Virus record (IMG/VR): IMGVR_UViG_3300025087_000039
Location: 1 to 64,000 of that record
DNA from: a virus
Length of the DNA: 64,000 bases
Reading direction: 5' to 3' (one strand)
Shown: positions 13,032-38,663 of the stretch, piece by piece
How positions within the stretch are numbered: position 1 is the first letter of the stretch
How the letters are laid out: each line of letters starts with the position of its first letter
Program-made: the position numbers and the translations under genes
Notes under the pieces: model-generated
Databases searched by the model: none
Told to the model about the DNA's origin: nothing
The model's input: only the letters and a program-made list of their open reading frames with translations

Positions 13032-14057
13032 TTATTTCCATAATTCTAAATTTTTTTTGCAAATTTTTATAAAATTGAGATTTCCATCTTGAACTTCATT
13101 TGATAAATTTTGTTTTAAAATATCTAAATTTTTTATGGCTTTAAAAATTATCTTTTCAAGATTATTTTCATCGAATATAAAAACCCCTTTTATTTTTTTG
13201 TAAAAATTTAGAAATCTTGTTGTGTCTCTAACAAGCAAAGGTGTTCCAGCCATAAGAACTTCTGTTAAAACTCTTGGACATCCATCTTGCTTATTTGAAG
13301 TAACCAATCCTAATTTAGATTTATTCAATAATTCATTCATAGTTCTTCTATCTATAGATCCAATAAATTCAATATTATTAACGTTATATTTTTTACAAAG
13401 TTGTTTTCCCAATTCTGGTTTATTTCCACAATGAACAATTTGTAATGTTTTTAAATATTTTGAATTTGAAATTTTTTGAATAAAATATTCTTGTCCTTTA
13501 TATCCGATTTGTGTAAAATTACATGGCCAACAAATATCGTATTTTAATTCTTTATTTTTAATAGGATAAAATACATCAGGGCTTGCTGTTTTAAAAAATG
13601 GTAAATGTTTAGGACTTGATAATTCAGAATTATCCTCGACTAAAATATAGTCATAAATTCCCCCATATACAGGGTTGACTCTTTTTGAAGATCCTAGATA
13701 TAATTTTAATCCAAAGAATTTAGGATTCTTTTTTGTAATTTCACAATATGATTTAAATCCTCCTCTAAAAAAACTTATATCAGGTTTTTCTTTTTCTTTA
13801 AAACATTCATCAAAAGACTTAACCCATTTTTGAATATATCTTCGATTATCAAATTCAAAAATTATAGACTCTTTTGGTTTATCAGTTAATCTCCAAATGA
13901 TGACTTCATCGAAAATTCCTTCTTGATAAAAATAAAAAGGCATCATCAAATAAAAGTCATGACAATTTCTAAAAAAATCCAATTGATTGGTATACTTATG
14001 GTAGTATTCTAAATTCTTCAAATCGGTTCTAAACATCCAAAATATTTTTTTTCTCAT
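13032..14057 (-). CDS. Glycosyltransferase, GT-B (GT4-like)
   Basis: 341 residues. The C-terminal Rossmann half shows the GT4 pattern: IEFIGSIDRRTMNELLNKSKLGLVTS, then CPRVLTEVLMAGTPLLV (the 'E...G.P' donor-binding segment). Its ATG overlaps the TGA of the upstream primase-polymerase gene. It is the last gene of the minus-strand glycosylation island. Confidence 0.75.
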   Translation of the reverse strand: MRKKIFWMFRTDLKNLEYYHKYTNQLDFFRNCHDFYLMMPFYFYQEGIFDEVIIWRLTDKPKESIIFEFDNRRYIQKWVKSFDECFKEKEKPDISFFRGGFKSYCEITKKNPKFFGLKLYLGSSKRVNPVYGGIYDYILVEDNSELSSPKHLPFFKTASPDVFYPIKNKELKYDICWPCNFTQIGYKGQEYFIQKISNSKYLKTLQIVHCGNKPELGKQLCKKYNVNNIEFIGSIDRRTMNELLNKSKLGLVTSNKQDGCPRVLTEVLMAGTPLLVRDTTRFLNFYKKIKGVFIFDENNLEKIIFKAIKNLDILKQNLSNEVQDGNLNFIKICKKNLELWK

Positions 14058-14740
14058 TTTATTGTGGCCTTCATGGGTTCAAAGTTTTTAATTTCATTAT
14101 ATTCAACTCTCATACATTTTAAACCCCAAACAGATAAACTATTTAAAGTTATAAAATTTCCATTATATTTATTTGATGCCCATAGATCTAAATTTACAAT
14201 ATCTTTTGTTCTTTTATGACTTATTGTAAATTCTTTTTTTAAATCACTATTTTTCAAATAATGTTCTAATAAATATCTTGATGAATCGATATTTATTTTT
14301 CTTGCTAAATATCCAACTAAATGAAAACTATTTTTTCCTGTGTACCTAATTTCAACCTTTTGAAAAAATGACGCATCTGTTAATGTTTCATATGTTTTTA
14401 TCGCTGCGTATTTTGCCATTGTCCAATTTTCGGTGTCAATATCGACAATGCAAAAATTCTCATGTGTTTCCATAGTCGTATGAATTGAGACGGTTCTTCC
14501 AGACATAATTTTATCATAATTCGAAGATGAAAATTTTATATAATCATTATTCAATTTTCTCTTAACTATAAATTCATTTTCATTTGTAGCTAAAAAAATC
14601 ATAGCCCTATGTCTACTTAATTCTTGTAATAAGTTCACTTTTTCTTTTTGATAATAATTCCAAATATCTATCTCAGTTAAACCTTTTGGATAATATTTAT
14701 TTTTAATAATTATTGTATCTGGATGTTCGGGATATGACAT
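14054..14740 (-). CDS. LigD-type primase-polymerase (AEP superfamily) domain protein
   Basis: 228 residues, equal to a stand-alone polymerase domain of bacterial DNA ligase D. Catalytic motif I is VDID (99-102), motif II TGKNSFH (134-140, the SxH motif), motif III NLD (183-185), followed by an ITLNSLS segment that matches the 'TVAPYSLR' region of LigD. LigD polymerases fill gaps and add nucleotides during end joining. It is encoded between a methyltransferase and a glycosyltransferase gene with ATGA overlap, apart from the replication block. A separate LigD phosphoesterase domain is at 38.2 kb. No ligase or Ku gene is seen. Confidence 0.75.
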   Translation of the reverse strand: MSYPEHPDTIIIKNKYYPKGLTEIDIWNYYQKEKVNLLQELSRHRAMIFLATNENEFIVKRKLNNDYIKFSSSNYDKIMSGRTVSIHTTMETHENFCIVDIDTENWTMAKYAAIKTYETLTDASFFQKVEIRYTGKNSFHLVGYLARKINIDSSRYLLEHYLKNSDLKKEFTISHKRTKDIVNLDLWASNKYNGNFITLNSLSVWGLKCMRVEYNEIKNFEPMKATIK

Positions 14741-14752
14741 TTTTAAGTTTTC

Positions 14753-15340
14753 CTAACTTTTAAATCCAGAAATTAAAAAGATTTTTTTTCCTGGCTTTTT
14801 TGGATTTTCTATTGTGTATCTTTGAATATATCTATTATCAAAAATATTTTTATAACGATCTAGAACTTCTTCAATTGTTTTAAAAAATCTAACATGAGAT
14901 TCAAAATTAGAATTAGGAACTGAAATAATTATGACAGAATTTTTTGGAATTAGACTTAATACCTTTATGTCATCTTGAATGTGTTCTAATGTTTCCAATA
15001 AAATGAAAGTGTTATAATTTTCAAAACCATTCTTTTTATGAAATTCAAAAAGATCTATGTTCTCAAAATTAAATTCTGGATACATTTTTTTAGCTATGTT
15101 AATTGCAGTTTTAGAGAAATCAATTCCTGTGTATTTCTTAAATCCTTTTTTCTTTATTAGACTTGCTATTTTTCCAGTGCCACAACCAACATCTAAAATT
15201 ATTCGTTCTGAACAAATTGTTGGAATAGAGTCAACAGCTTTTTTATACAATTCATAATATCCACTTTCTTCAATATTTTTTAAATGCTTAGGATTTTTAT
15301 ATACCTTATCATAATATTCTGGAGGCATCTCTTTTTTCAT
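14753..15340 (-). CDS. SAM-dependent class I methyltransferase
   Basis: 195 residues. Motif I LDVGCGTGK (about 48-56), the acidic GIDFS at the end of strand 2 and ENIDLFEF support a small-molecule or sugar methyltransferase. Target unknown; the position within the glycosyltransferase cluster suggests a sugar. AAGGAG precedes ATG 15340. Confidence 0.8.
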   Translation of the reverse strand: MKKEMPPEYYDKVYKNPKHLKNIEESGYYELYKKAVDSIPTICSERIILDVGCGTGKIASLIKKKGFKKYTGIDFSKTAINIAKKMYPEFNFENIDLFEFHKKNGFENYNTFILLETLEHIQDDIKVLSLIPKNSVIIISVPNSNFESHVRFFKTIEEVLDRYKNIFDNRYIQRYTIENPKKPGKKIFLISGFKS

Positions 15341-15343
15341 TTT

Positions 15344-16267
15344 TTAGAAAAGCTCCTTTTTTATAATCTTAGTCATTTCTTTTATCCTATAATCATTACT
15401 TAAATATTGTTGTGCAAATTTATTTCCTTCTTTGGCTATTTTAGTTCTCTCTTTTTCATGTTCTAAATAATAAAAAATTTTATTTCTTAAATCAATTAAA
15501 TCAGAATATATAACCAAGTGTTTGCCGTCCTCTAACCCAATTCTTTCTAGATCGGGGGGACGGTCTGCTAAAACAAAAGTTCCACATCCAAGAAACTCAC
15601 TATATTTCATATTAAATGAGCCAAATATATTATTTGAGATCACAGCAATACTTGAGCGATTTATTGCGTTAATATATGCTTGATGAGTGACCCTTCTCAT
15701 ATAAACTTTTAATTTTGTTTTAGAAAGCATTTTATTTATTTTAGATCTATTAGGATAAACATCTGATCTTTGTGTCGAACTTGTAATTACGTCAAAAACT
15801 TTTTCTAACCCAAGTCTTTTATAAACTTCCATATCAGAAGAAAATGGTAAAAAATAAGATGGAACATTTATTCCATTTTTCTTAAGATCTTCAACCTGTC
15901 TATATTGTCTAACAAAAAATAAATCAAATTTATTTTTTTTCATAAATTCATGTTGTCTTGGCCAACTTCCTTTATAACCAGAAGGATGTTTTGGAAAATA
16001 ATCAACAACAAAATGAACCTTTGGAATATGTTTAACATCTTCCAATCCATTAAATTCTAAAGTATATCTTAAGCCACATGTAAAAACAAAATCAAAATTA
16101 TTACCATATTCGTTTATAACATCCATAACTCTTTTTTTTGGATCAAAGTTTGGAAACCCTGAACCATAAAAAACTACATCATGAAATTTAGCTATATCAT
16201 TTCTAAATCTCTGATGCCCCCAATTATAACGCCCAATTAAATTTGGGCTTAAAACTAAAATTCTCAT
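15344..16267 (-). CDS. Glycosyltransferase, CgeB-like GT-B
   Basis: 307 residues. The C-terminus has the pattern KYSEFLGCGTFVLADRP...GLEDGKHLVIYSD, typical of CgeB-like family-1 glycosyltransferases (the 'E...G...L' and 'F.dg.h...y' motifs). It overlaps neither neighbour and is only 4 bp from each. Substrate unknown. Confidence 0.75.
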   Translation of the reverse strand: MRILVLSPNLIGRYNWGHQRFRNDIAKFHDVVFYGSGFPNFDPKKRVMDVINEYGNNFDFVFTCGLRYTLEFNGLEDVKHIPKVHFVVDYFPKHPSGYKGSWPRQHEFMKKNKFDLFFVRQYRQVEDLKKNGINVPSYFLPFSSDMEVYKRLGLEKVFDVITSSTQRSDVYPNRSKINKMLSKTKLKVYMRRVTHQAYINAINRSSIAVISNNIFGSFNMKYSEFLGCGTFVLADRPPDLERIGLEDGKHLVIYSDLIDLRNKIFYYLEHEKERTKIAKEGNKFAQQYLSNDYRIKEMTKIIKKELF

Positions 16268-16270
16268 ATC

Positions 16271-16909
16271 TTAACCTCTTTTTTGAAAATTGGTAGAAAG
16301 CCAGCAATACCGAATCATTTTTCCCCTATTCTTTTCCAAAGTATATTTTTTTATATCATAACTATTATATAAATATGTTTTATCTATAAAAGGCATAATC
16401 TTATCAGTATACCATTTCTTATGAAAATCATCAAAAAGAACAATCGTTTTTTCTGTCACAAAATTTTCTAAAATAATTGGAATGTGATCGGGTCTATTTT
16501 TTGTTTGATCTATATCAATAAATACTAAATCAAAATCTCGTTTTTCATTTTTAAATTTATTCCAGACTGAAAAATTTTCATCTAATAAACCCTTTTTCTC
16601 AACAAATTTTTTTGTCTTCAATAACCAATCTTTATCAGTGTCTATAGACCAAATTTTCATATCTTTGGTTCCATAACGCTTTCGATAAAATCTTAAAATA
16701 TAAGATGAAAAACCACTGCCTAAATCCAATACACTTTTACAATTAAAAAGTTCCATTAAAATCAAAAGAAAAACTGAACATTCAATTGACGCAGCCGCAC
16801 CTCCACTTGAGATGGTTGTAATATATTCATTATATTCATCAATAATCCCTTCAAAATATTTTTCATATAAATCTTTAAAATTATTTTCTATTTTCTTTTC
16901 TATACCCAT
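16271..16909 (-). CDS. Class I SAM-dependent methyltransferase-like protein
   Basis: 212 residues. VLDLGSGFSSYIL (motif I), WSIDTDKDWL and DLVFIDIDQTKNRPDHI fit the Rossmann methyltransferase fold, in the style of O-methyltransferases attached to glycan clusters. FDDFHKKW follows as motif VI. Gene order suggests modification of the same glycan as its neighbours. Confidence 0.7.
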   Translation of the reverse strand: MGIEKKIENNFKDLYEKYFEGIIDEYNEYITTISSGGAAASIECSVFLLILMELFNCKSVLDLGSGFSSYILRFYRKRYGTKDMKIWSIDTDKDWLLKTKKFVEKKGLLDENFSVWNKFKNEKRDFDLVFIDIDQTKNRPDHIPIILENFVTEKTIVLFDDFHKKWYTDKIMPFIDKTYLYNSYDIKKYTLEKNRGKMIRYCWLSTNFQKRG

Positions 16910-16910
16910 T

Positions 16911-17258
16911 CTATCGTTCTCCAGTTATTTTTATTTTCTTTTGAACTTTTATAGCTTGAAAAATAGGAATGATTTTTTTTGATAAAACATACGGATTATC
17001 AGATGTAATTGGACCTTTAATATTTTTTAAAATCAATATTTCTTTGGCTTTAATATTTCTCCAGAAAAATATACTTTTAACTTGACAATAATAAGTACAT
17101 CTTTTTAATTCTTTATTATATTTAAAAAGAATTCGATATGTCATTTCTCCATATCTATTTTTTAGATCTTTATTAATATCAAAAACAATGTCAGATATTA
17201 ACAAATCTGAATATCTAAAAACTCGACCTTTTTTATCAATTCTCTTTTGAACAATCAT
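16911..17258 (-). CDS. Unknown small basic protein
   Basis: 115 residues, rich in Lys/Arg and beta-prone (alternating hydrophobic and charged). No known motif. Lies between the methyltransferase and the second LmbE-like deacetylase. ATG 17258 is preceded by AAGGGCG. Confidence 0.6.
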   Translation of the reverse strand: MIVQKRIDKKGRVFRYSDLLISDIVFDINKDLKNRYGEMTYRILFKYNKELKRCTYYCQVKSIFFWRNIKAKEILILKNIKGPITSDNPYVLSKKIIPIFQAIKVQKKIKITGER

Positions 17259-17273
17259 TGTTCACGCCCTTAA

Positions 17274-17873
17274 TTAAAAAGGATATTGAAGTTTTCTTAC
17301 GATAAAGCCTTCAGCGTATAAATCAGGCTCAGTGGATATTTCACTTGCCCAAAAAGATTCTCTTCTATCTATAAGATTGTGATTAATTGCATTTAACTCA
17401 AGTTGACTTTTAAAACAATCAACAATTTTTCTTTTTCTTTCTTTATCAATTATATTATAAACTGTAGGATAAAAATCATATGTTGAACCGCTGGAATAAA
17501 AGAATGTTGTCAAATTTCTTTTTCTTCCTACCGACCGGCCTATAAAAGCGGCTTGAACATGATGCTGATGGCTATCTTTTTCAAACATTGAAAAAATAAT
17601 ATCTGGCTTAATCAAATCTAATTCACCTATAATATCTGATGGGTCTAAAATATCTCCAGTAAAAAGAAAAATTCTATCTCTTGAAATTTTCATTAAATCG
17701 GAAGCACATATTTGTTCTTGAATTCTTATCTCTGGATCTCCAGTTCTTGTTTCATCACTATTTAAAATTGCTAAATAAACTTCATCATTTTTATCTATAT
17801 GTTTATTTAATGTTCCGGAACATGCAACTTCTATATCATCAAAATGAGCTCCAATTGCTAAAATTCTTTTCAT
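17274..17873 (-). CDS. LmbE/PIG-L-type deacetylase (variant metal motif)
   Basis: 199 residues from ATG 17873, which follows AAGGAG; a GTG at 17879 is the alternative. The zinc motif is AHFDDIE (residues about 9-15) instead of the usual AHPDDE, and DSHQHH carries the distal histidines. The other segments (LNSDETRTGD, PDIIFSMF) fit the fold. It probably deacetylates an N-acetylated sugar. Adjacent to two beta-helix acyltransferases, which together could swap an acetyl for another acyl group on an amino sugar. Confidence 0.75.
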   Translation of the reverse strand: MKRILAIGAHFDDIEVACSGTLNKHIDKNDEVYLAILNSDETRTGDPEIRIQEQICASDLMKISRDRIFLFTGDILDPSDIIGELDLIKPDIIFSMFEKDSHQHHVQAAFIGRSVGRKRNLTTFFYSSGSTYDFYPTVYNIIDKERKRKIVDCFKSQLELNAINHNLIDRRESFWASEISTEPDLYAEGFIVRKLQYPF

Positions 17874-17883
17874 ATTCACTCCT

Positions 17884-18657
17884 TCAAAAATTCCAATTTT
17901 CTATATATTCTTTTTGTTTTTTTAATGGAGTCCCATAATAAATTCCAGACTCCGTAATATTTTTATAAACATTTGATCCCATTCCAATAATAACATTATC
18001 ACAGATAGAAACTTTATTTTTTATATTTGTTCCCACCCCAACCCAACAATTATTTCCTATTCTAACTGACCCAGAAATTATGCAACCATTTCCAATTACT
18101 GTGTTATCTTCAATAATACAATTGTGCCCAATATTAGAAAGGGCTCCAATATATATATTATTTCCAATGATCGTATCATCTAAAACTCCTCTATGTATTA
18201 CAGAGTGAGCCCCAATAATCACATTATCTCCAATAAATAAATTTCCTATATGAATCATTTGAATTTTAATTTTATTTTCGGAATCATCTAATCCAAACGC
18301 TAAATGTAATCCCTCAGCTCCTAACACAGAACTTATATGAATTGAACCATTTTTTCCTATTGATATTTTAGCCCTTGGTTTGTTTCTATTTATAAAATTA
18401 TGTAAAATTGAAAATGAATATAATACATTGGACACAAAATAAAATTTAACAAATTTATGGTTTAAAAAATTGTCATTACTATCTGCTAAATGAAACTCTA
18501 ATTTTTCATCAGCTAAAATATGAACAGGAAAATTTATATCAATTAGATATTTTAAATATGTCAAATCTTTAATATATGAAACGCAGTCTGGTTTCAAAAA
18601 TTTTATTGAGCATGTTTTTTTATCTAATAAATCTTTAAATAATGACATTTCAATCAT
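17884..18657 (-). CDS. Left-handed beta-helix acyltransferase (LpxD-like)
   Basis: 257 residues. An N-terminal alpha/beta part (1-75) is followed by hexapeptide repeats of the form (I/V)G(N/D)(N)xxIG from about 100 to 240, e.g. IGDNVIIGAHSVIHRG and IGNNCWVGVGTNI. The long N-terminal domain recalls LpxD, which N-acylates UDP-glucosamine derivatives, but the acyl donor cannot be told. Start ATG 18657 overlaps the stop of the upstream acyltransferase gene. Confidence 0.8.
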   Translation of the reverse strand: MIEMSLFKDLLDKKTCSIKFLKPDCVSYIKDLTYLKYLIDINFPVHILADEKLEFHLADSNDNFLNHKFVKFYFVSNVLYSFSILHNFINRNKPRAKISIGKNGSIHISSVLGAEGLHLAFGLDDSENKIKIQMIHIGNLFIGDNVIIGAHSVIHRGVLDDTIIGNNIYIGALSNIGHNCIIEDNTVIGNGCIISGSVRIGNNCWVGVGTNIKNKVSICDNVIIGMGSNVYKNITESGIYYGTPLKKQKEYIENWNF

Positions 18658-19195
18658 TTTTATTTATCACTTTCTTTGCAGGAATGCCGATATATGTAGA
18701 GTTTTTGTCACAGTTTTTATTTACAAAACTCATCGCTCCAATAATTGTATTATGACCAATATGAACTCCTGGACCGATCACAGCATTTGTACCTATATAA
18801 CAATTTTTTTCTATCTTTATATATTTTGAATGATCCCCCTTAACATCAGAAAATATTGTCATAACATTTGGAGATAAAAAACAATTATGTCCTATATGGA
18901 TATTTCTACAAATTGTAGAATTAAATCTCAAAGTTGTATTTGAACCAACCACATTATCACCAGAAGATTTCACAAAACTATCGATTGAAACCCCATTAAA
19001 AATACATGTATTTTCTTGTAATAAAACATAATTTTTTAGAGATACATCGTCTCCACAAATCACACCTTCTTCGATAATACAAAATTTTCCAATTTTAAAA
19101 TTTTTTCCTTTGATAAAACTTTTATGAATATAATTTTGCTTAAAGATTCTTTGATAAATTCTCCATAGATGAAAAAATATTTTTTTATCAGTCAT
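18650..19195 (-). CDS. Left-handed beta-helix acyltransferase
   Basis: 181 residues from ATG 19195 (GGAGG upstream, ATGA overlap with the preceding gene). Hexapeptide repeats run from about residue 35 to 165 (IGHNCFLSPNVMT, IGTNAVIGPGVHIGHNTIIG), ending in the IGIPAKKV signature common to sugar O-acetyltransferases. Probably acetylates a glycan sugar. Confidence 0.8.
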   Translation of the reverse strand: MTDKKIFFHLWRIYQRIFKQNYIHKSFIKGKNFKIGKFCIIEEGVICGDDVSLKNYVLLQENTCIFNGVSIDSFVKSSGDNVVGSNTTLRFNSTICRNIHIGHNCFLSPNVMTIFSDVKGDHSKYIKIEKNCYIGTNAVIGPGVHIGHNTIIGAMSFVNKNCDKNSTYIGIPAKKVINKND

Positions 19196-19938
19196 TCTAA
19201 TTTCCTCCATGAAATAAATTGTTCTCTTCCTGGTGTCACCTTAGAAAAATGATTTGCATCTCTCCAATACTTTCCTCTTTTACCCCAAACTAATCTAGCG
19301 TCTCCAGGTTTGCCATAAATACCATATTTCCATTTCATTATAAAATCCGACATTTTTGGATTCTTAAATCTAAATTGTTTTTCTGGGTTTTTATCATCAA
19401 CCATCATGGTTCGTCCTGTTTTGACAAATTCTCCCCTTATCAAAACAGGGTTTAACCCAAATTGTTTTTTTTGATCATCCGCCACAAAAAAACCTTCTTC
19501 GTTATATCTATATTTCGTATTAAATATTCTTGGGGTTAAAACATTTGGAATTGGTTCTTTATAGAGTCTCAAACATGCAAGGTCTTTGTATTTATTCATA
19601 ATTTCTATCATGTGATCAACATCGACTTTTCGGTGAACAATCCAATCATCCTCTAAATGAAAAACCCAAGGTGATTCAACTTGATCCCATGTCCATCTAA
19701 CAGCCTTAGGAAAAGATGGTTCTTTAGATATATTATATACGACCTTTTTGAAATGATTTTTACAAACTTCTAAAACATCATTCGCTGTAGCCTTGCCATT
19801 TCCCAAAGGGTCAATATTTACAATTAATCTATATCTATCTGGATTTTTATAAAACATACTTTTGAAAAATGATTTCAAAGTTCCTCTAACAATTTCCGGT
19901 CTTAACACAGATGTCATAGTGATATCTATTTTATCCAT
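19192..19938 (-). CDS. Glycosyltransferase, GT-A type
   Basis: 248 residues. The N-terminal strand (ITMTSVLRPEIVRGTLKS) and FHLEDDWIV (about 90-98), where EDD replaces the DxD metal motif, place it in the GT-A fold. The protein starts directly at the end of the GT-D gene upstream. Sugar donor unknown. Confidence 0.75.
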   Translation of the reverse strand: MDKIDITMTSVLRPEIVRGTLKSFFKSMFYKNPDRYRLIVNIDPLGNGKATANDVLEVCKNHFKKVVYNISKEPSFPKAVRWTWDQVESPWVFHLEDDWIVHRKVDVDHMIEIMNKYKDLACLRLYKEPIPNVLTPRIFNTKYRYNEEGFFVADDQKKQFGLNPVLIRGEFVKTGRTMMVDDKNPEKQFRFKNPKMSDFIMKWKYGIYGKPGDARLVWGKRGKYWRDANHFSKVTPGREQFISWRKLE

Positions 19939-20793
19939 TTATAAATACCTCTGGAATTTTTTTGCTTTTTTTTTTAAAATGAATTCATATTGATTATCCG
20001 GATTTTTGCCAATAAACTCTTTTAATCTCACAGGAATATCTTTCTTTAGCCAATAGTCATAGACAAAACCTAAATCAAAAGATCTTCCGCCATATTCTTT
20101 TATCACTCCAGAATATATTCTCCCTAATTCTCCAGCTGAAACCAACCACATATCATAATAATTTGCTTTTTCTGAAATCTCTTTAATCACAGTATTAAAT
20201 GACTTTTCATACTGATTTTGCCATTGTGATGGGATTTCTATACATTCTGAGGCGCATTCTAATTCTTGTAAAATGTCAATTATTTTTTTATTTGTTCCTA
20301 TACAACAAACTCGTTTACCTTTTAATAAATCGATTAAATTCATTTTATTTTTACTAATTCTTAAAACAGATAAAAAATTTATTTCTGGATTACAATAATT
20401 TTTATTATCAAATTCAGCATCATTATATATTTCATACCACAATTTTAATTTCATAATGGTTTGTTTATGCATTGGCTTTTTTGGCCCTCTAAGCCTGGGC
20501 CAAAAATATTCCGTAAAATATATTTCTGGGGTATCAATATAATTTGCCGTTCTTGCAGCCCATCCCCACCATTCTAAAATATCACCAGACAGTTCAATAG
20601 GAAAACCTTCTTTTAAAGATATTTCACTTAGTTGATTATGATTTCCTCTTGTAACAGATTCAATAAATTTTAATCCACCGTCACCAAATCTAATCAAAGA
20701 AAAAGGGATTTTATTTTCTATACATTTTTTTAAATCATTTAAAATTTCTTCGATAGAAAAAAGATATCTTCCTTTCATAATTTCTATTGACAT
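19939..20793 (-). CDS. Glycosyltransferase, GT-D type (DUF1792-like)
   Basis: 284 residues. SLIRFGDGG (about 36-44) corresponds to the 'RFGDGE' signature of the GT-D fold first seen in streptococcal glycan glucosyltransferases; the last residue is Gly in place of Glu, which is unusual. Downstream KRVCCIGTNKK and WLVSAGELGRI complete the nucleotide-sugar site. Cooperation with neighbouring transferases is inferred. Confidence 0.7.
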   Translation of the reverse strand: MSIEIMKGRYLFSIEEILNDLKKCIENKIPFSLIRFGDGGLKFIESVTRGNHNQLSEISLKEGFPIELSGDILEWWGWAARTANYIDTPEIYFTEYFWPRLRGPKKPMHKQTIMKLKLWYEIYNDAEFDNKNYCNPEINFLSVLRISKNKMNLIDLLKGKRVCCIGTNKKIIDILQELECASECIEIPSQWQNQYEKSFNTVIKEISEKANYYDMWLVSAGELGRIYSGVIKEYGGRSFDLGFVYDYWLKKDIPVRLKEFIGKNPDNQYEFILKKKAKKFQRYL

Positions 20794-20795
20794 AA

Positions 20796-21779
20796 TTATT
20801 TTAATTCCTCCAAAAGTTTTACAAACTTTTTCATATTATATTCTCGACTTCCTAAAGAGATAATTTCCTCCCTTCCTTTTTTTCCTAATTCAAATCTTTT
20901 TTTAGAATTAATAATTATCTTTTCCACACTTCGTCTAAAACTTTCAAAATTATTTTCTGAAACCACTCCAGAGTGATTATGTATTAAATAATCCTTTGTT
21001 CCAGATAATTCCGCATTTATTCCAACGACACAACATTCTGTCAACATAGCTTCAGCTGGAGGGATATGTAATCCTTCAAGACACGTTGGAGCTAACCATA
21101 CATTTATAGAATTATAAATCTCATTTTTTTCTTCAATTGAAGGAGTTTTTACGTATCGATCAATTACAGAGTCTGTCATTTTATCTGTTCCGTACATATA
21201 TAACTTTGTTTTATATTTATCTTTAAATTCACTTTGAATTTTTAAAATCCAGTCAGATCTTTTTGTTTTATGTTTTGTATGATATAATCCACCTAGAACA
21301 ATTTCATTATTATTTTTTCTTAAATTCATTGGATATTGTTCATTAAAATCATAACCAGGTCTAATAACGAAAGAACGAATATTAAATTTTTCAATATAAT
21401 TTTGTAAGCCTATACTATTTACAACTTTTATCGTTGGAACATTTAATATATTTTTTATGATAACATTTTCATCCATTTTCCATGTTTCCCAGCCTCTTAT
21501 CCAATGTATTTTTTTCCCACACCTCTGAGGAATATTCAATGTCGACTTGACTGTTTTATATCCTGTCGCAATTATAAAATCAGCATCAGGAATTTGATTT
21601 TCTCTTTTTATTGAAAGATAATCGCATTTAATTGGAGTCCAATTATAACCAATTTTTGTATTATCAATAATTGTTACCTCGTTTCCCAACTTAGCCAAAG
21701 TATTTGCAGATCTAACTATAGTATGTGACCCACCATTATTTCCGAGACCACAATTCAACAAATTAAAAATAATTTTCAT
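20796..21779 (-). CDS. Glycosyltransferase family 4 (GT-B)
   Basis: 327 residues. GGSHTIVRSANTLAKLGNEV at the N-terminus and CLEGLHIPPAEAMLTECCVV near residue 245 give the classical GT4 'EG.....EAM' signature. DYLIHNHSGVV follows. Probably adds a hexose to a growing glycan. The gene abuts its neighbours with 1-3 bp spacing. Confidence 0.85.
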   Translation of the reverse strand: MKIIFNLLNCGLGNNGGSHTIVRSANTLAKLGNEVTIIDNTKIGYNWTPIKCDYLSIKRENQIPDADFIIATGYKTVKSTLNIPQRCGKKIHWIRGWETWKMDENVIIKNILNVPTIKVVNSIGLQNYIEKFNIRSFVIRPGYDFNEQYPMNLRKNNNEIVLGGLYHTKHKTKRSDWILKIQSEFKDKYKTKLYMYGTDKMTDSVIDRYVKTPSIEEKNEIYNSINVWLAPTCLEGLHIPPAEAMLTECCVVGINAELSGTKDYLIHNHSGVVSENNFESFRRSVEKIIINSKKRFELGKKGREEIISLGSREYNMKKFVKLLEELK

Positions 21780-22565
21780 TTAAAAAGTTCTCCTGAATAT
21801 TTTTGTCTTCATAGGATTTATTAAAGATATCTGATCATTAGTACATTTTTCATTAATAAGGATTGTTGGTTTTTTAAGCAAAAGACTTAATTTAGTAATA
21901 TCCGAATTTAAGTTTCCAATGCTTAGAGAAGATAATTTTAATGACTCAATAATACAACCTAATTTTGTAAGATTTTTACTTTCTTGAATCTTAGATATTT
22001 GTATATTCTTTCGTTTTATATTTACATTTTCTGAACTATTAATAATAAATCTTTCATTATTTTCTTTAAACATTACTTCAAATACTTTATCTAAAATACT
22101 TATTTTTTTTATAGCATCAAAATCTATAAAAATATTTTTTTTATCATATTTCAATGTGTCATGAATAAAAGCTTCATTGTCTCTTCTTGGTAAAAAATCA
22201 TAAAGCATTTTACTTCGAGGAAATTGCCACTTTACCTTATAATTAAAAGAATGTATTCTTGGAAAAAAATGATTTTCTATTTTAAATTTTCCTGAATATT
22301 TTGACTTAAATTTTTCTGACATTTTTATATATTCATCATTTGTTATTTCCGTATCTCTAAACATCTCAGAATTATTATCATCAAAATATAAAGGGATTAA
22401 AAAATCAACATATCTTCCATATAAATCAAATCTCTCTGGTCTTGTAAAAACAGCTATTTGACTTTTAGGATTTTTTCTTTTTGTATAAATGCAAAACGGA
22501 GCAAAATATAACATCTCCCATTCTAAAGAACCTATAAAAGGGCCAAATAAAAATATCGAATTCAT
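21780..22565 (-). CDS. Glycosyltransferase-like paralogue A
   Basis: 261 residues. N-terminus FLFGPFIGSLEWEMLYFAPF, then FTRPERFDLYGRYVDFLIPL, nearly the same arrangement as the next gene. The C-terminal KLSLLLKKPTILI resembles a GT-B donor region. Tandem duplication with 22565-23455 is clear; the enzymatic call is inferred from context. Confidence 0.6.
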   Translation of the reverse strand: MNSIFLFGPFIGSLEWEMLYFAPFCIYTKRKNPKSQIAVFTRPERFDLYGRYVDFLIPLYFDDNNSEMFRDTEITNDEYIKMSEKFKSKYSGKFKIENHFFPRIHSFNYKVKWQFPRSKMLYDFLPRRDNEAFIHDTLKYDKKNIFIDFDAIKKISILDKVFEVMFKENNERFIINSSENVNIKRKNIQISKIQESKNLTKLGCIIESLKLSSLSIGNLNSDITKLSLLLKKPTILINEKCTNDQISLINPMKTKIFRRTF

Positions 22566-23455
22566 TATTTATTCCTTAGAATTTTTGACATTATTTTCAA
22601 AACTTTTTCAGGTGGGATATTATAATATCTATCATCGATAAAAGTTATAGGAGTCTTTTTATAATTATAATCTAAAGTATGAAATCTTTTTTGATCTCCC
22701 CATTCTAAAACTTCTGTTCCTAAAGATAAAGATAAATTTGGAATAGAGGATTGACTTCCACAAGTCAAAATAGAATTTTTTATGCACTCTATAGTGATGC
22801 CGATTAAAGAAGAATCTTTAGTTAATTTAAAATTATTTATATCTAAAAATCTTTCTTTTGAATCTGGAATATATTCTGGAGCTTTTCCACAAATTATAAA
22901 ATTAAATCTATTATATAAATCGCTTTGATATAATAAATCATAAAACTCATTCCAATATTTCCAGTTTCTTTTAAATCCTCTTCGAAATCTAGAACCCAAA
23001 ACTACATTTTTTTTACCATTTGAAATATATTTATTTACTATAATTAAATTATCTTTTCTTGGCTTAAATTCATGAATCATTTTTCCACGTGGAAATTGAT
23101 GCTTATTTAAATGATGAGGCTTTTCTATCTTCGGATAAAGATGTTCAACAATATCATATTGATTCATATACTTATCATGAAAATTTGTTATTAGTTTATA
23201 ATAACCTGTTAATGGATAACCCTCTAATCTAAAACAGTTTCCTTTATATTTTGTAAAATCTCCATCAATTCTTAAAGGAACAAAAATATCAGAGTATTGT
23301 CCATAAAGATCAAAAGTGTCTTCCCTTGTATAAACGATAAGTTTAACTTTATTTTTATATTTAGAAATTTTATTCCAAATTACAAAAGGGGCAAAACGCA
23401 AAACTTGCCAGCCCAATTCCCCTATAAATGGTCCAGCTAAAATTGCTTTTTCCAT
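22565..23455 (-). CDS. Glycosyltransferase-like paralogue B
   Basis: 296 residues from ATG 23455 (overlapping the previous stop, TAATG). GPFIGELGWQVLRFAPF and YTREDTFDLYGQYSDIFVPL match paralogue A; GSQSSIPNLSLSLGTEVLEWG near residue 245 looks like the heptosyltransferase/GT9-type segment in which a 'S.pshla..lg' loop binds the donor. It probably arose by tandem duplication. Confidence 0.65.
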   Translation of the reverse strand: MEKAILAGPFIGELGWQVLRFAPFVIWNKISKYKNKVKLIVYTREDTFDLYGQYSDIFVPLRIDGDFTKYKGNCFRLEGYPLTGYYKLITNFHDKYMNQYDIVEHLYPKIEKPHHLNKHQFPRGKMIHEFKPRKDNLIIVNKYISNGKKNVVLGSRFRRGFKRNWKYWNEFYDLLYQSDLYNRFNFIICGKAPEYIPDSKERFLDINNFKLTKDSSLIGITIECIKNSILTCGSQSSIPNLSLSLGTEVLEWGDQKRFHTLDYNYKKTPITFIDDRYYNIPPEKVLKIMSKILRNK

Positions 23456-23745: not shown

Positions 23746-23748
23746 TAT

Positions 23749-32500: not shown

Positions 32501-32551
32501 AGAATGTTAAATTATTTTTCATAACAAATATTTAAAAGAGAAAGGTGAAAA

Positions 32552-33526
32552 ATGAAAATCCTTGAAAGTTTATGGGTAGAGAAATATCGTCCGAAGGAAA
32601 TTAAAGATCTTGTAATTCCTAATGATTATATAGAAGATTTTACAAGCTATTTTAAAAAAGGAGAAATCCCTAATTTATTATTTTATGGATGTCAGGGAAG
32701 TGGAAAGACTACTTTAGGAAAAATCATTTGTTCGGAGAATGGAGTTTTACATAGAAAGGTTGATAATCTATTAATTGTCAATGGTTCTTCAAAATCAACA
32801 AGAGGTATCGATTTTGTTGATACAACCATAGAACCTTTTTTAAAGGTTCCCCCATCTGGAACAGATAAATATAAAATTGTTTTTATCGATGAAGCAGATT
32901 ATTTAACAGATAATAGCTTTAGTTCTTTAAGACACATCATTGAAAAATATCAAGTTTCTTATGGAAGATTTATTTTTACATGTAATTATATTTCGAAAAT
33001 TCCCCCAGCAATTCAATCTAGATTTCAATCCTATGAATTTGAGAAAATCCCAACTAATTTTATTTTAAAATACTGCACAGATATTCTTAACAATGAAAAT
33101 ATATCTTTTCAAGAAGAAGATGTAAAATATTTAATAGAACAATTATTTCCGGATATCAGAAAAATAGTTAACACTCTTCAAAGAAATTCAAACACAGGAA
33201 AACTTCGTTTTGATAAAAATGGTATTATAACCTCTGAAAAACTTATTGTCTCAAGTTTTATAAAAGCTTGTGAATCTTTAAATGATAAGAATGAATTAAA
33301 TCGAATGTTAGGGACAATAGTGAATTCATTGAATGAAAGTTTGGATTATAGAAATTTATACACAACAATTTTTCAAATGGAACGAGTCTCTCCAATTGTA
33401 AAAATATTAGTTAATAAATATAGTAATGAACATAAAGATTGTTTGGTTCCCTCAATGAATTTTATGGGAATGGTTTTTGAATCTTTAAAATCTTTAAGAG
33501 AATATGAAACTTTGAGATCTAAATGA
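32552..33526 (+). CDS. Clamp-loader large subunit (T4 gp44-like AAA+ ATPase)
   Basis: 324 residues. WVEKYRPKEIKDL at the N-terminus, Walker A GCQGSGKT (46-53), Walker B FIDEAD (111-116) and the arginine finger SRF (156-158) define an RFC/gp44-type AAA+ loader ATPase. It loads the sliding clamp on primed DNA. ATG 32552 follows GAAAGG. It is followed, with a 4-nt overlap, by the primase gene. Confidence 0.95.
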   Translation: MKILESLWVEKYRPKEIKDLVIPNDYIEDFTSYFKKGEIPNLLFYGCQGSGKTTLGKIICSENGVLHRKVDNLLIVNGSSKSTRGIDFVDTTIEPFLKVPPSGTDKYKIVFIDEADYLTDNSFSSLRHIIEKYQVSYGRFIFTCNYISKIPPAIQSRFQSYEFEKIPTNFILKYCTDILNNENISFQEEDVKYLIEQLFPDIRKIVNTLQRNSNTGKLRFDKNGIITSEKLIVSSFIKACESLNDKNELNRMLGTIVNSLNESLDYRNLYTTIFQMERVSPIVKILVNKYSNEHKDCLVPSMNFMGMVFESLKSLREYETLRSK

Positions 33527-34500
33527 TTTACACTGAAGAATTTAAAAAGTTTCTAGAAAATTATTTTGGGCCAAAGAAAATTGTTTATAAAGCAAAAAAT
33601 ATAATTATTCCTTGTCCGTGGTGTGAATATTTTGAAGAAAAGAAACATTATCATTGTTATATATCTTTAGACTTACCAATCTTCAATTGTTTCTATGCAA
33701 ATTGTAGACAATCTGGATCAATAAAAAAGTTAGTTCAAAAAGTTTCAGGAAATGATAATTCAAATAAGTTAATTGATTATACAAAAATAAAAAAGAATCA
33801 ATTAGATTTTTCTAAATCTGGAAAGGCTTTTAAACCAAAGGAATATAATATCCCAGAAATCAGAATGGGTCGATTTCCTGATAAAGAATTTTATTTAAGA
33901 AAAAGAATTGATTTTTCAGATCTGAATATTCTTAAAATAAAAGGTTTAATTTTTAGCATAAAGGATTTTTTATCTTTAAATTTTATAGAACCTCATCCTG
34001 ATTTTAAAAGGATAGAGGATTATATTGAAGAAAAATTTATTGGTTTTTTAACGGAAAATAAAACTTGTATATTTTTTAGAAATATTGATGCATCTAGCAA
34101 TTTTAGACATTTCAAATTTAAGTTATCAGAATCGACATTTTTGGATTATTATAAAATAAAAGGACCCAAAAAAGATTCTAATCTTGTTATATTAGGAGAA
34201 GGAATTTTTGATATTTATAGTGAAATGATTTTTGATAGTATCAAAGTCCAAGATGAAGCAAATTTGTATGCATGTTCTTTATCTAGCTCATTTGGAGAAT
34301 TAGCAAGAAGTATTGCTTTTAATGAACAAATATATAGATTAAATATAAATATCCTTTCCGATTCAGATGTCCAATTGAATTATTATAAGAAAATGAAAAA
34401 AGATTATAGACATCTAATAGATAAATTATCTGTCTTTTATAATAAGAAAGGAAAAGATTTTAATGTCACACCAGCTATTCCAATAAAATATGTTTTATGA
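33523..34500 (+). CDS. DNA primase (DnaG/gp61-like)
   Basis: 325 residues. Zinc site CPWC (31-34) with CYIS and CFYANC (45-61) is the CHC2-like binding domain; the Toprim catalytic part shows LGEGIFD (about 224) and ILSDSD (about 285). It synthesises RNA primers for lagging-strand replication. The start overlaps the clamp loader stop (ATGA). Smaller than E. coli DnaG and similar to T4 gp61. Confidence 0.85.
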   Translation: MIYTEEFKKFLENYFGPKKIVYKAKNIIIPCPWCEYFEEKKHYHCYISLDLPIFNCFYANCRQSGSIKKLVQKVSGNDNSNKLIDYTKIKKNQLDFSKSGKAFKPKEYNIPEIRMGRFPDKEFYLRKRIDFSDLNILKIKGLIFSIKDFLSLNFIEPHPDFKRIEDYIEEKFIGFLTENKTCIFFRNIDASSNFRHFKFKLSESTFLDYYKIKGPKKDSNLVILGEGIFDIYSEMIFDSIKVQDEANLYACSLSSSFGELARSIAFNEQIYRLNINILSDSDVQLNYYKKMKKDYRHLIDKLSVFYNKKGKDFNVTPAIPIKYVL

Positions 34501-34521
34501 TTTTTAAATAGGAGAAATGGT

Positions 34522-34959: not shown

Positions 34960-34960
34960 G

Positions 34961-35146: not shown

Positions 35147-35151
35147 TCTCA

Positions 35152-35910
35152 ATGAATACCGTGACTCTTCAGCAAGAACAATATGATGAATTTATTCGGT
35201 GTCTACAAATTTTAAAAGATTCATGTACGGACGTTGATATTAGAAATGGCCAAATTAGACAAAAGACAAATGATGTTTCTGTAATTTTTGATATGAATTT
35301 ATCTGAGATAATTTCTGAGTTGAATTTTCCCTTAAGTAATTTAAAGCAAAAGCTTGATATTTTGAAGTGTTTTATTAATCAAGAGGTTACCCTTTCAGAA
35401 TTACCGGAAGAAAGATCTTTTGGTTTTTCAGATCAATTTTCAAATTTAAAAATTAAGAATACGTCTTTGGATTTTTTAGATAATAAATTTATTACCAATG
35501 ATGATTTAAATGCAATGTTTACATTACAAGAAGAAGATCTTATTTTAGAATGCACAATTAACAGAACTATCTCAAATCGAATGAAGGTTATCTCTCAAAA
35601 TTTTAGCTCAACATCTTTTGAAGTTTCCATTGAAAATAATGAAGCGAAAATTTCTTCTAAGACTCAAGCCAAAGATCAATCGGTTGTCTTTATACAAAAT
35701 ATAACGACGAATAAATCTATCGAGTCTTCAATTTGTAATTTGGTTCCAATTCCTTTCATTGTAGAACATGATGGTGATATTGAATTTAAAATGTATATTG
35801 TGGATTATGAAAGAAAGACAGTGCTTTGTAAATTTAAAACTCTCATTGGCTCCATAGATATTGTAATGTACTCAAGAGGTTCTCTTATAAGTTCTGAAGA
35901 TGAGGAATAA
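35152..35910 (+). CDS. Putative DNA sliding clamp (gp45/PCNA-like)
   Basis: 252 residues, beta-strand rich with acidic surface, no catalytic motif. Length, a pair of similar halves (domain boundary near residue 120) and position immediately after primase match T4-type sliding clamps. The sequence itself is divergent. It would tether the polymerase and be loaded by the 32552 protein. ATGA overlap with the next gene. Confidence 0.6.
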   Translation: MNTVTLQQEQYDEFIRCLQILKDSCTDVDIRNGQIRQKTNDVSVIFDMNLSEIISELNFPLSNLKQKLDILKCFINQEVTLSELPEERSFGFSDQFSNLKIKNTSLDFLDNKFITNDDLNAMFTLQEEDLILECTINRTISNRMKVISQNFSSTSFEVSIENNEAKISSKTQAKDQSVVFIQNITTNKSIESSICNLVPIPFIVEHDGDIEFKMYIVDYERKTVLCKFKTLIGSIDIVMYSRGSLISSEDEE

Positions 35911-37046
35911 TGAATCCGACAACCCTTTTACCTTATTATCCAACTTATAATATTTTAGATGAGGTCGTTAGTTCAAAAAATTATAAAAATATTAATATTT
36001 TTATAGATTTAAAGAACAATCTTCAGACAACATTTTTAGAGTTCGCTGTCAAAAATATCATAGAGAATTCTAAAGCTTCAAATTATTATGATACATCTAT
36101 TTTTTCATCAGTTATTTCTTTTTTGGGATTTCATAAATTATATGCATTAAAAAGAGGGTTGAATATAAATTTTTATATATTTTTTGAAACGGGTCAATCA
36201 TATTATCATATTCATTTACATAAAGATTATAAAAAATCAAGACATGTTGGTGGGAATTTATTTGGACTGGATTTAGAAGATAGAGATCTTTTTAAATCTG
36301 TCTTGTATTCAAATTTCTTAATGACAGAAAAAGCATTAAATAGAGTTCCTAATGTTTTTGTTGTTCATCTACAAAATTTAGAAGCAGACTTTGTTCCTTA
36401 TTATTTAATCAAAAGAAAAAAGATTTTACAAGATGAAAACACAGTCAATTTAATTTATTCGACTGATCATGATCTTTATCAGTGTGTTGACGAAAATACC
36501 TTTGTTTTTTTCAGACATTATAAAACAAAAAAAATTATCAAAAAAGGACAAGTTTTATCTGAATATTTAAAAATAGAATCTGATATTCCAGATGAATATC
36601 TTCCATTTGCGATGAGTATTATTGGAGATTCTGGAGATGATATTGATGGCATAAAAGGAATTGCCGCTGGAAGATTTATTCCGATTTTTAATGATTTAAA
36701 AAATATAATTGGAGATATGACCTTATTATATAAAAATATTGAAGAAGGTTCAAATCCTTTTTCATTGTATCAGGAAACAAAACTGAACAAAAATATAGAT
36801 AAAATAATTGAATCTGAAAAAAACAGTTCATTGATTTCTAGAAATATGAAATTAGTATCATTTGAACTTTTATCAAGAAAATTAGATAATCCTGATTGTA
36901 CTGAAATAATTGATAAAAAGAAAAAACTTTTAGATCCATTCAAAATTAAAGAAATTGTGTCATATGATTCAATTCTTAACGCTCTCGTAAAAAATCATGT
37001 AATTCTTGAAGAAGAATCTTTAAATGTTTTATACTATGGGAGTTAA
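35910..37046 (+). CDS. 5'-3' exonuclease / RNase H-like (PIN/FEN fold)
   Basis: 378 residues. LEADFVPYYL (about 167-176, acidic pair), LIYSTDHDLYQCV (about 195-207) and SIIGDSGDDIDGIKGIAAG (about 241-259, the FEN helix-hairpin-helix segment) are the hallmarks of T4 RNase H-type nucleases that remove RNA primers. Slightly longer than T4 RNase H (305). Belongs to the replication operon. Confidence 0.7.
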   Translation: MNPTTLLPYYPTYNILDEVVSSKNYKNINIFIDLKNNLQTTFLEFAVKNIIENSKASNYYDTSIFSSVISFLGFHKLYALKRGLNINFYIFFETGQSYYHIHLHKDYKKSRHVGGNLFGLDLEDRDLFKSVLYSNFLMTEKALNRVPNVFVVHLQNLEADFVPYYLIKRKKILQDENTVNLIYSTDHDLYQCVDENTFVFFRHYKTKKIIKKGQVLSEYLKIESDIPDEYLPFAMSIIGDSGDDIDGIKGIAAGRFIPIFNDLKNIIGDMTLLYKNIEEGSNPFSLYQETKLNKNIDKIIESEKNSSLISRNMKLVSFELLSRKLDNPDCTEIIDKKKKLLDPFKIKEIVSYDSILNALVKNHVILEEESLNVLYYGS

Positions 37047-37052
37047 AGGATA

Positions 37053-37775
37053 ATGCTAAATGATAATCAAGTTATTCAATTTATAAAAAGAAAATTAGGG
37101 TTTCCTCATGTGGGAATAGAGTTGACTGATGAGGAAATTATGTATGATGTTAAAAATTTTTCATTGAAAGAATTTTCATATTATATTCCAAGTAAGGCAA
37201 TTACAGTTTTAAATACAACTTTAAATTCTTCTAAGGTTGCAGGAAAAGGAAATGAGTTTTATATTACCGAACCCGATGGTTTGGAAATTTTAAATGTTAA
37301 AGAAATCTATGGTTCTGACTCTCAATTTTTTATTCATGGACACCCTATTTGGGGTGCTTTAAGTCAACCGACTGATTTAAGAAACTTTGCTTTGGATGTT
37401 GCCACAAGTATGATGATAAAGCAATTTTCTATGTTTGATAGAACCTTTGAATTTAAACATCCAAATATAGTTAGAATTTCTCCAATTCCAAATAATTCAG
37501 AAACTTATTTAGCCATCGAATACGAAAGACAACAGCCACAAGATTTTAGAGATATACCAAATGATCTTCAAATGTTTTTTTGTGATTTTGCTTTAGCAGA
37601 TATAATGATTGTTTTAGGAAATATTAGAAGAAAATACAGTGGAAATATGAGAACTCCTTTTGGAGAAATTCCTATAGACGCTGATGTCGGTGAAAAAGGA
37701 GAAACTAAAAAAAGGGAATTATTAGATAAACTTTCAACAAATCGACTTTTAAATGTGGTGGTAGATTTTGGATAA
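37053..37775 (+). CDS. Probable virion (neck/connector) protein
   Basis: 240 residues. NIRRKYSGNMRTPFGEIPIDADVGEKGETKKRELLDKLS is a pattern I associate with neck/connector proteins of T4-like and jumbo myoviruses (gp13/14-type). The assignment is moderate. It is unexpected in the replication block and is followed by the RuvC-like gene with 8-nt overlap. Confidence 0.5.
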   Translation: MLNDNQVIQFIKRKLGFPHVGIELTDEEIMYDVKNFSLKEFSYYIPSKAITVLNTTLNSSKVAGKGNEFYITEPDGLEILNVKEIYGSDSQFFIHGHPIWGALSQPTDLRNFALDVATSMMIKQFSMFDRTFEFKHPNIVRISPIPNNSETYLAIEYERQQPQDFRDIPNDLQMFFCDFALADIMIVLGNIRRKYSGNMRTPFGEIPIDADVGEKGETKKRELLDKLSTNRLLNVVVDFG

Positions 37776-38244
37776 AGAATATTTTATAGGCTTAGATTTA
37801 TCAATGACCGGAACAGGGATGATTATCATTGATAATAATTTAAATATTATAAATCAGGAATTAATATCTTCTTCTCCCTCTGATGGCTCCAATGAAAAAA
37901 GAATAATAAAATTAAAAAATAATATTTTCTCATTTCTTCCTGAAGATCTGAAAATGATAAATAAAATTGGAATTGAAGGAATTTCTTATGGAAGCAAAGG
38001 AAGATCAATTGCTGAAATGTCGGCATTGAATTATTTTATTAGAATAAGCTGTTTAGAAAATAATCTCTCTTATATGGAAATACCCCCAACCACATTAAAG
38101 AAGTTTATAACTGGAAAAGGAAATTCTCCTAAAGATTTAATGCTTTTAAAAACATATAAAAAATTTGGTGTGGAATTTGATAATAATAATTTATGTGATG
38201 CTTATTGTTTAGCAAGATTTGTTTTAGAGGAATCTAAAAAATGA
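37768..38244 (+). CDS. RuvC-like Holliday junction resolvase
   Basis: 158 residues. GLDLSMTGTG (8-17) provides the first catalytic Asp, GIEGISYGSKG (about 70-80) the central acidic, and LCDAYCLARF (about 141-150) the C-terminal pair. The start is TTG 37768: no ATG precedes the first catalytic Asp. It resolves recombination/replication junctions. The stop overlaps the start of the next gene (ATGA). Confidence 0.75.
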   Translation: MDKEYFIGLDLSMTGTGMIIIDNNLNIINQELISSSPSDGSNEKRIIKLKNNIFSFLPEDLKMINKIGIEGISYGSKGRSIAEMSALNYFIRISCLENNLSYMEIPPTTLKKFITGKGNSPKDLMLLKTYKKFGVEFDNNNLCDAYCLARFVLEESKK

Positions 38245-38663
38245 GTCAACCATCTGAATTTATAATTGTAAAACATGATGCTATAAAAAGAGGATTACAT
38301 AATGATTTAAGATTTAAAAAACCATCTGGAAATATGTGGATATCTTTTTCTGTAAGAGATCAAATTCCATTAGTTCCAGGGAAAAAGATTGTTATAATTG
38401 AGACCACAGAACATACGAGAGAAGAAGCGTTATTTATAGGAAAAATTGAATCCGGCTATGGAGCAGGAACCATTGAAAAATATGATAAGGGGGCATGTGA
38501 AATAATTTCATGTTCAAATAAACATATTAAAATTATATTTCATGGTTCCAAAATAAAAGGGTTATATCATATAATAAACACAAGTACGTTTGGAAAAGGT
38601 GATAAAAATTCAAAAACATGGTTGTTTTTTAAGGCTTCAACCCAGGAGAATAATAATGAATAA
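38241..38663 (+). CDS. Stand-alone LigD 3'-phosphoesterase (PE) domain
   Basis: 140 residues, equal to the PE domain of bacterial LigD. KHDA (11-14), GLHNDLRF (18-25) and GYGAGTIEKYDKG (72-84) match the catalytic His, Asp and Arg motifs. PE domains trim 3'-phosphates and terminal ribonucleotides at broken ends. Encoded between a RuvC-like resolvase and a DUF5661-like protein; the polymerase part is found at 14.0-14.7 kb on the other strand. Confidence 0.8.
   Translation: MSQPSEFIIVKHDAIKRGLHNDLRFKKPSGNMWISFSVRDQIPLVPGKKIVIIETTEHTREEALFIGKIESGYGAGTIEKYDKGACEIISCSNKHIKIIFHGSKIKGLYHIINTSTFGKGDKNSKTWLFFKASTQENNNE

Follow-up and report, generated by a model that had tools for sequence, protein, structure and literature searches.

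This locus raises the question of why a virus should encode, as distant and separate genes, relatives of two modules that bacterial DNA ligase D (LigD) holds in one protein. The locus lies within a window of 64,000 bases that forms the first part of the 125,597-base IMG/VR record IMGVR_UViG_3300025087_000039; the record is classed as linear and is possibly a fragment, and the GC content of the window is 29%. Two open reading frames (ORFs), on opposite strands and 23.5 kb apart, encode a stand-alone LigD-type primase-polymerase of the archaeo-eukaryotic primase superfamily (AEP; P0001) and a stand-alone LigD-type 3'-phosphoesterase (PE; P0002). Both stand where a preliminary description of the sequence had put them, the AEP on the minus and the PE on the plus strand. 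They are probably disassembled LigD-like DNA repair modules of a lineage of very large phages with their own RNA polymerases, acting in Ku-independent gap filling and 3'-end cleaning. This reading draws on the identity and fold of the two products, on the retention of most catalytic residues, on the joint inheritance of the genes, on AEP-PE fusions in other phages, on a ligase gene next to the AEP in relatives and on the lack of a Ku gene in the records searched.

The features of the AEP gene are as follows:

14054..14740, minus strand: stand-alone LigD-type primase-polymerase (AEP), 228 residues, P0001, recognized by fold, intermediate sequences and family alignment
14435..14446, minus strand: AEP motif I, VDID, residues 99-102, with Asp100 and Asp102 as metal ligands, each Asp invariant in 26 aligned AEPs
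14321..14341, minus strand: AEP motif II, TGKNSFH, residues 134-140, with Thr134 at the position of LigD Ser172 and His140 at that of His178
14186..14194, minus strand: AEP motif III, NLD, residues 183-185, with Asp185 at the position of LigD Asp227

The three LigD polymerase motifs attributed to this gene beforehand (VDID, SFH and NLD) are thus all present. The 26 aligned phage AEPs show no variation at D100, D102 or H140 and a conservation of at least 90% at D185. In Pfam profile searches P0001 itself had no match to PF21686 (LigD_Prim-Pol), for which a close relative scored 24.0 bits against a cut-off of 27.4; its sole AEP match was a sub-threshold one to AEP-TOTE (E 0.0016). The link to the LigD polymerase family is provided by L023, a phage fusion protein that matches LigD_Prim-Pol with an E value of 1e-13 and whose AEP half aligns with P0001 over 215 residues at 27% identity (BLASTP E 1e-10). 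The AlphaFold model of P0001, built on 26 phage sequences (pLDDT 95.8), pointed the same way. Its best match in the Protein Data Bank (PDB) was the Pseudomonas aeruginosa LigD polymerase domain (2fao, E 6.7e-11, TMq 0.79), with 2fao, 5dmu and 2r9l among ranks 1-4 (E 7e-11 to 6e-10), and the best fold matches overall (E 7e-11 to 1e-7) were the P. aeruginosa and M. tuberculosis LigD polymerase domains, the M. paludicola NHEJ (non-homologous end joining) polymerase and M. smegmatis Prim-PolC, the last of which gave the highest TM-score (6sa0, TMq 0.83). Other AEPs were far weaker, with E values of 1.5e-4 for human primase, 2.6e-4 for CAPP, 0.02 for S-2L PrimPol and 0.1 for NrS-1; the last two are phage replicative enzymes of the same superfamily, and P0001 has no helicase fusion. 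P0001 is therefore confirmed as a LigD-type AEP, its membership resting on intermediate sequences and fold, and its assignment to the AEP-TOTE conflict-system primases was rejected on the same two grounds. In LigD a His contacts the ribose; P0001 apparently keeps it as His87 (by our own assignment), but several relatives have Tyr or Phe there. RNA-tolerant synthesis, proposed in the preliminary description, is plausible by homology only.

The PE gene and its motifs are the following:

38241..38663, plus strand: stand-alone LigD-type 3'-phosphoesterase (PE), 140 residues, P0002, with Pfam, TIGR, PDB sequence and fold matches
38274..38312, plus strand: PE metal/phosphate motif H12...H20-x-D22-x-R24 (P. 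aeruginosa LigD H42, H48, D50 and R52), with a two-residue insertion
38412..38426, plus strand: PE H58 (P. aeruginosa LigD H84, kept) and E62 (Tyr88, replaced by Glu)

P0002 matched the Pfam family LigD_N (PF13298) with an E value of 7.9e-13 and 48.9 bits, above the curated cut-off of 31.1, and also TIGR02777 (E 6e-15) and the sequence of 3p43 (E 1e-16); its model (pLDDT 92.4) matched the folds of 3p43 (E 1.8e-9) and 3n9b (E 6.5e-9). The match values of AEP and PE are far beyond chance. When mapped on P. aeruginosa LigD, for which residue roles have been described (PMC8656161), P0002 keeps H42, H48, D50, R52, S61 and H84 and is non-canonical at two positions, with Glu62 for Tyr88 and Val10 for Gln40. 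The Tyr88 position is mostly Glu in the PEs of phages with split genes, with single cases of Asp, Asn and Ser, and is Trp in two records (G042 and G045) whose PEs belong to a different branch. According to PMC4797286, none of the six catalytic residues varies among the cellular PEs of its alignment; the replacement is therefore a real departure, and it offers a natural test of the accepted PE mechanism.

P0002, most phage PEs and the archaeal stand-alone PEs share a two-residue insertion between the metal-binding histidines. The insertion was rejected as a phage-only clade marker because the archaeal proteins have it too, and for the same reason the phage PEs should not be viewed as a separate invention. 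The archaeal proteins (3p43 and 3p4h, and loci L109-L116 from Asgard, Bathyarchaeota and Nitrososphaerota, in which the insertion was seen) resemble P0002 in being short and single-domain; 3p43 and 3p4h differ from it in keeping Tyr88, and only one archaeal genome among those tested had an AEP match. Two relatives have PE genes of unusual form: one record (G004, locus L009, 9992-10762) carries a tandem pair, the second member of which has a shorter inter-histidine stretch and Ser at the Tyr88 position, and in another (G044, locus L089, from 1486) the PE continues in frame and with no stop into ribonucleotide reductase, a possible fusion protein.

The distribution of the two genes was followed from both sides. 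Pattern scans that used single sequences (P0001, P0002, the clamp loader) gave no matches, and profile alignments were needed. A profile scan of viral contigs for PE yielded 28 loci, on contigs of up to 312 kb, in which the PE is found stand-alone or fused to Pol X (L006, L022), to an ATP-dependent ligase (L007, L014, L015, L021, L025, L026) or to an AEP (L023, L024, L027 and, later, L072). L023, L024 and L027 match both LigD_Prim-Pol (E 8e-13 to 3e-15, above cut-off) and LigD_N, and such fusions show that AEP and PE modules can act as one protein. All four AEP-PE genes lie directly downstream of a gene for an RNA polymerase beta-like protein of 1450-1800 residues, and a similar large gene precedes the PE-ligase gene L021. 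In the PE tree the P0002 group (16 rows) forms one clade with support of 100/99, and the PEs of G042 and G045 fall on another branch; a second acquisition of PE by phages with a split AEP is not claimed, a single clade not being rejected (approximately unbiased test, p = 0.23).

Searching the 28 PE records with P0001 recovered, in addition to three fusions, full-length AEPs in three records only (G004, G006 and G007; 46, 44 and 42% identical), and these are the records whose PEs are closest to P0002. When viral contigs were scanned independently for the AEP, 21 stand-alone loci emerged, and a PE (E 2e-34 or better) was present in 15 of these records, including all 11 that exceed 125 kb; the six without one are pieces of 39-124 kb. 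The identity of the 21 AEPs to P0001 is no more than 39-54%, so the pair has been kept through a long divergence. Both genes also occur on a 211-kb contig that is syntenic with the window (BPGB01000002.1, L108) and is binned in a Woesearchaeota metagenome-assembled genome. It is a phage that was binned wrongly, or else it hints at an archaeal host.

A third component, an ATP-dependent ligase, accompanies the AEP in part of the family. In G006, G035 and G041 the AEP gene touches or overlaps the gene of an AEP-linked ligase family (PF01068 E 3e-10; PF04679 matched below threshold); this ligase gene lies 141 bp from the AEP in G032 and one gene away in G044 and G046, and stands elsewhere in G004; in G052 a similar ligase-like ORF, read from the sequence, is directly beside the AEP. 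Not every AEP record yielded a ligase. Ligase-bearing records are scattered over the AEP tree and include three early-branching rows, a pattern compatible with an old AEP-ligase unit that would have been lost in some lines. The preliminary description had seen no ligase domain, which holds for the window; beyond it, however, the record encodes an ATP-dependent DNA ligase (99912-101027, PF01068 E 1e-16) and two RNA ligases.

Several observations weigh against a working pair of repair modules. The AEP gene of this phage is separated from the PE gene by 23.5 kb, lies on the other strand and stands among glycosyltransferase genes, which makes co-transcription unlikely; most relatives have a gap of 10-55 kb, and in most records the two genes are on opposite strands, commonly with 23-55 kb between them. 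Only in G042 are they close (1.1 kb, same strand). A PE without an AEP was seen in G050 and G051, which span 92 and 87 kb, and in G005, a clade-mate and the fourth record with a PE close to P0002. For G005 the lack of an AEP is explicable by the end of the record, since it starts near the PE and, to judge from coordinates, would stop short of the place that the AEP occupies in its near-identical relative G006. Part of the co-occurrence is due to the shared ancestry of the phages, and genes of a single lineage can be inherited together without cooperating; a neutral marker-gene control (A11) was small, with nine records only, of which three were new, these three being pieces of 87-102 kb. The AEP-linked ligase family is not in the record of this phage. 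P0001 has 228 residues, some 60 fewer than LigD polymerase domains (about 280-300), and neither Lys16 of the 5'-phosphate pocket nor synapsis loops 1 and 2 could be confidently aligned on it. Finally, the PE, described beforehand as complete, has five of the six catalytic residues (H42, H48, D50, R52 and H84), the phosphate-contacting Y88 being the exception. As a Tyr88 point mutation inactivates the P. aeruginosa enzyme (PMC8656161), activity in this clade may differ or be lost, and the protein could by now be a catalytically altered or dead PE that binds DNA ends or acts as an inhibitor. The spread of Glu, Asp, Asn or Ser at this position across the P0002 clade, when the cellular PEs of PMC4797286 keep Tyr, would suit such a fate, but the H42/H48/D50 triad, R52, S61 and H84 are invariant in all aligned phage PEs, as a working enzyme would lead one to expect, and of the explanations considered here we give this one the least credence.

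Whether the pair serves end joining in the classical sense turns largely on Ku. The earlier remark that no Ku gene was seen was borne out well beyond the window, as none was detected in the whole 125,597-base record or in the 28 PE-bearing records (29 records together, most of them fragments). Of the components of prokaryotic NHEJ, the record has an ATP-dependent DNA ligase and no detected Ku. True NHEJ, in which AEP, PE and ligase would repair double-strand breaks, such as those made by host restriction or CRISPR nucleases, with the help of host Ku or an unrecognized phage synapsis factor, would account for a domain set equal to that of archaeal and bacterial NHEJ minus Ku (PMC4797286), for the adjacency of AEP and ligase in relatives and for the AEP-PE fusions of other phages. 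We nevertheless hold it to be unlikely, given the 29 records without Ku, the lack of a common operon for AEP and PE here and the phage's own homologous recombination set. The absence of Ku favors repair of the gap or excision type, or of ends held by recombination proteins, over classical NHEJ.

The pair can be compared with several cellular systems. Bacterial DNA ligase D (PF21686, PF13298 and PF01068/PF04679, with POL, PE and LIG in one protein) is resembled in the AEP fold and motifs, in the PE fold and in the ATP-dependent ligase beside the AEP of relatives; it differs in that here the genes are separate and 23.5 kb apart, no Ku was found, the AEP is shorter, Tyr88 of the PE is Glu, and this record's ligase belongs to a family other than the AEP-linked one. 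Separate genes have a precedent, as Pol, PE and Lig genes are co-expressed from one operon in many organisms and the Methanocella paludicola PE is operonic with polymerase and ligase (PMC4797286). The NHEJ system of M. paludicola shares with the phage discrete Pol and PE proteins of the same folds, 5dmu and 5dmp being among the best fold matches, but the phage has no detected Ku, no shared operon and an altered PE active site, and is viral; its Pol, PE and Lig are neither fused nor in one operon, fusion or adjacency being confined to other phages. The earlier idea of a split end-joining enzyme survives in part: both proteins are of LigD type and are linked by co-occurrence and by AEP-PE fusions, but the PE lacks Tyr88, the record has a separate ligase and split genes are not unprecedented. 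Without Ku, double-strand-break repair suits the pair no better than does gap or excision repair of the LigC/Prim-PolC kind. To our knowledge, no PE partner gene of such a kind is known for mycobacterial LigC/Prim-PolC, whereas the PE of this lineage is inherited together with the AEP and forms fusions in other phages, with ligase adjacency in some relatives only. In that excision repair system a stand-alone Prim-Pol works with a separate ATP ligase (PMC5663958, PMC7442782); a likeness to it may be seen in the stand-alone form of the AEP and in the top TM-score of its model, which fell to 6sa0.

The surroundings of the two genes bear on two further explanations. The main replication and recombination genes of the window are these:

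32552..33526, plus strand: clamp loader (RFC-like), in the same gene run as the PE
33523..34500, plus strand: DNA primase (phrog_19847 'DNA primase', E 3e-17)
35910..37046, plus strand: 5'-3' exonuclease/flap nuclease, in the same gene run as the PE
37768..38244, plus strand: RuvC-like Holliday-junction resolvase (phrog_159, E 3e-26), overlapping the PE start by four bases
42192..43469, plus strand: UvsX/RecA-like recombinase (phrog_97, E 6e-47)

Together with an RNA polymerase beta' and a B12-dependent ribonucleotide reductase bearing an intein, these are genes of large phages. The PE gene lies within the replication and recombination run, preceded by RuvC and followed by ribonucleotide reductase, and RuvC is near the PE in about ten related records. 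The AEP gene is surrounded by glycosyltransferase genes, within a long stretch (13032-24579) of glycosyltransferase-, methyltransferase- and acyltransferase-like genes, most of them recognized by eye; several relatives also have the adjoining 341-residue glycosyltransferase close to their AEP. A family B DNA polymerase was found in nine related phage records and in the phage contig of G052. Because of that polymerase in relatives and the separate DNA primase in the window, the AEP is unlikely to be the replicase, a role that was considered and rejected, and the phage need not rely on it for priming. An AEP that primes replication restart or makes primers for recombination-dependent replication, with the PE as a separate primer or 3'-end clean-up enzyme that is co-inherited without being its partner, would be in keeping with the many phage AEPs that are primases and with the distance and opposed strands of the two genes in most records. 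It is improbable, however, in view of the other DNA primase, of an AEP fold of the LigD and Prim-PolC type, not the replicative-primase type, and of the AEP-PE fusions and AEP-ligase adjacency.

RNA might instead be the substrate, with the PE, and perhaps the AEP, healing the 3' ends of cleaved tRNAs for phage RNA ligases. The record does encode an RNA repair set of two RNA ligases, RlaP and an HD-kinase protein (106250-106882, 111808-112719, 116779-117957 and 124321-125496), and a comparison of 224 jumbo phages describes RNA repair systems that large phages carry against host nucleases (PMC7824862). The PE, however, stands beside RuvC and ribonucleotide reductase, outside the RNA-repair region, and its fusion in other phages to a LigD-type AEP, DNA ligase and Pol X points to DNA rather than RNA; we regard an RNA-repair role as having little likelihood, much like that of a restart primase.

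From the LigD-like DNA repair reading, which we prefer, we infer enzymatic activities, ribonucleotide use, physical cooperation and a lesion as follows. The AEP would add a few nucleotides, probably ribonucleotides like its relatives, at gaps, nicks or broken ends of phage DNA. The PE, by its predicted activity, would restore a clean 3'-OH by stripping blocked 3' ends, among them 3'-phosphates and 3'-terminal ribonucleotides. Sealing of the strand would fall to a separate ATP-dependent DNA ligase, namely the AEP-linked one in some relatives and possibly the 99912-101027 ligase in this phage. The substrate is more likely to be gaps, excision intermediates or ends held by the phage UvsX, RuvC and SbcCD than freely diffusing double-strand breaks. 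A bolder proposal, which we put forward tentatively and consider possible, is that large phages have an autonomous, Ku-free, RNA-using pathway of DNA gap and end repair assembled from interchangeable LigD parts (AEP, PE, ATP ligase and sometimes Pol X), with the parts separate here and the PE active site remodeled (Tyr88 to Glu) toward a changed substrate preference, perhaps for modified phage DNA or for ends made by host defense nucleases.

LigD Pol and PE modules in phages, AEP-PE and PE-Pol X fusions, their Ku-free setting and the replacement of Tyr88 all appear to be new, whereas separate Pol, PE and Lig in cells (PMC4797286) and the solved structures of archaeal stand-alone PEs (3p43, 3p4h) are already known. 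A tblastn search of INPHARED (50,697 annotated phage genomes) gave no significant match to the PE or the stand-alone AEP. In the open-licence PMC literature searched, neither a phage PE nor a phage stand-alone AEP is described and LigD-type repair is a cellular pathway; NHEJ figures in the excerpts of the 224-jumbo-phage comparison only in connection with SbcCD (PMC7824862). The co-inheritance of the two modules in huge phages, and their rearrangement into AEP-PE, PE-ligase and PE-Pol X proteins, suggest that LigD-type chemistry serves the phages' own genomes and that LigD-like modules may have a reservoir or a source in phages; each module is a small candidate for direct assay.

Other features of the record were noted in passing. 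Stretches of the window with a GC content of up to 58-61% (1-1000, 9000-9500 and 10250-11750) look like cellular DNA or assembly joins; one contains an S1-domain protein (27-587, PF00575 E 7e-31), and the ORFs tested in 10250-11220 had no Pfam match. A chimeric record was considered; these stretches all precede about 12 kb, whereas AEP and PE both lie in low-GC sequence free of such interruptions. Genes for beta' and beta of a multi-subunit RNA polymerase seem to be present in two sets (window 60534-62879; record 63877-67977, 92685-95411 and 95419-98427), and a gene run at record 83562-92269 that matches Prok-E2_D, Prok-JAB and ThiF (E1-like), and includes a further ThiF-like ORF, looks like a phage ubiquitin-like conjugation module; Pfam confirmed both beta' genes, and both beta genes and the further ThiF-like ORF were assigned by sequence reading. 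A NAMPT gene adjoins a Nudix-bearing gene (window 57453-59692), which may allow rebuilding of NAD+, and a weak macro-domain match and a NADAR domain occur at record 111319-111798 and 119878-120321; these genes are likely to be a counter-defense against NAD+ depletion and ADP-ribosylation. Genes for QueC, a QueD-like protein (PTPS) and FolE2 (window 8098-8676; record 76531-76959 and 98574-99419) make a 7-deazaguanine modification of the phage DNA possible.

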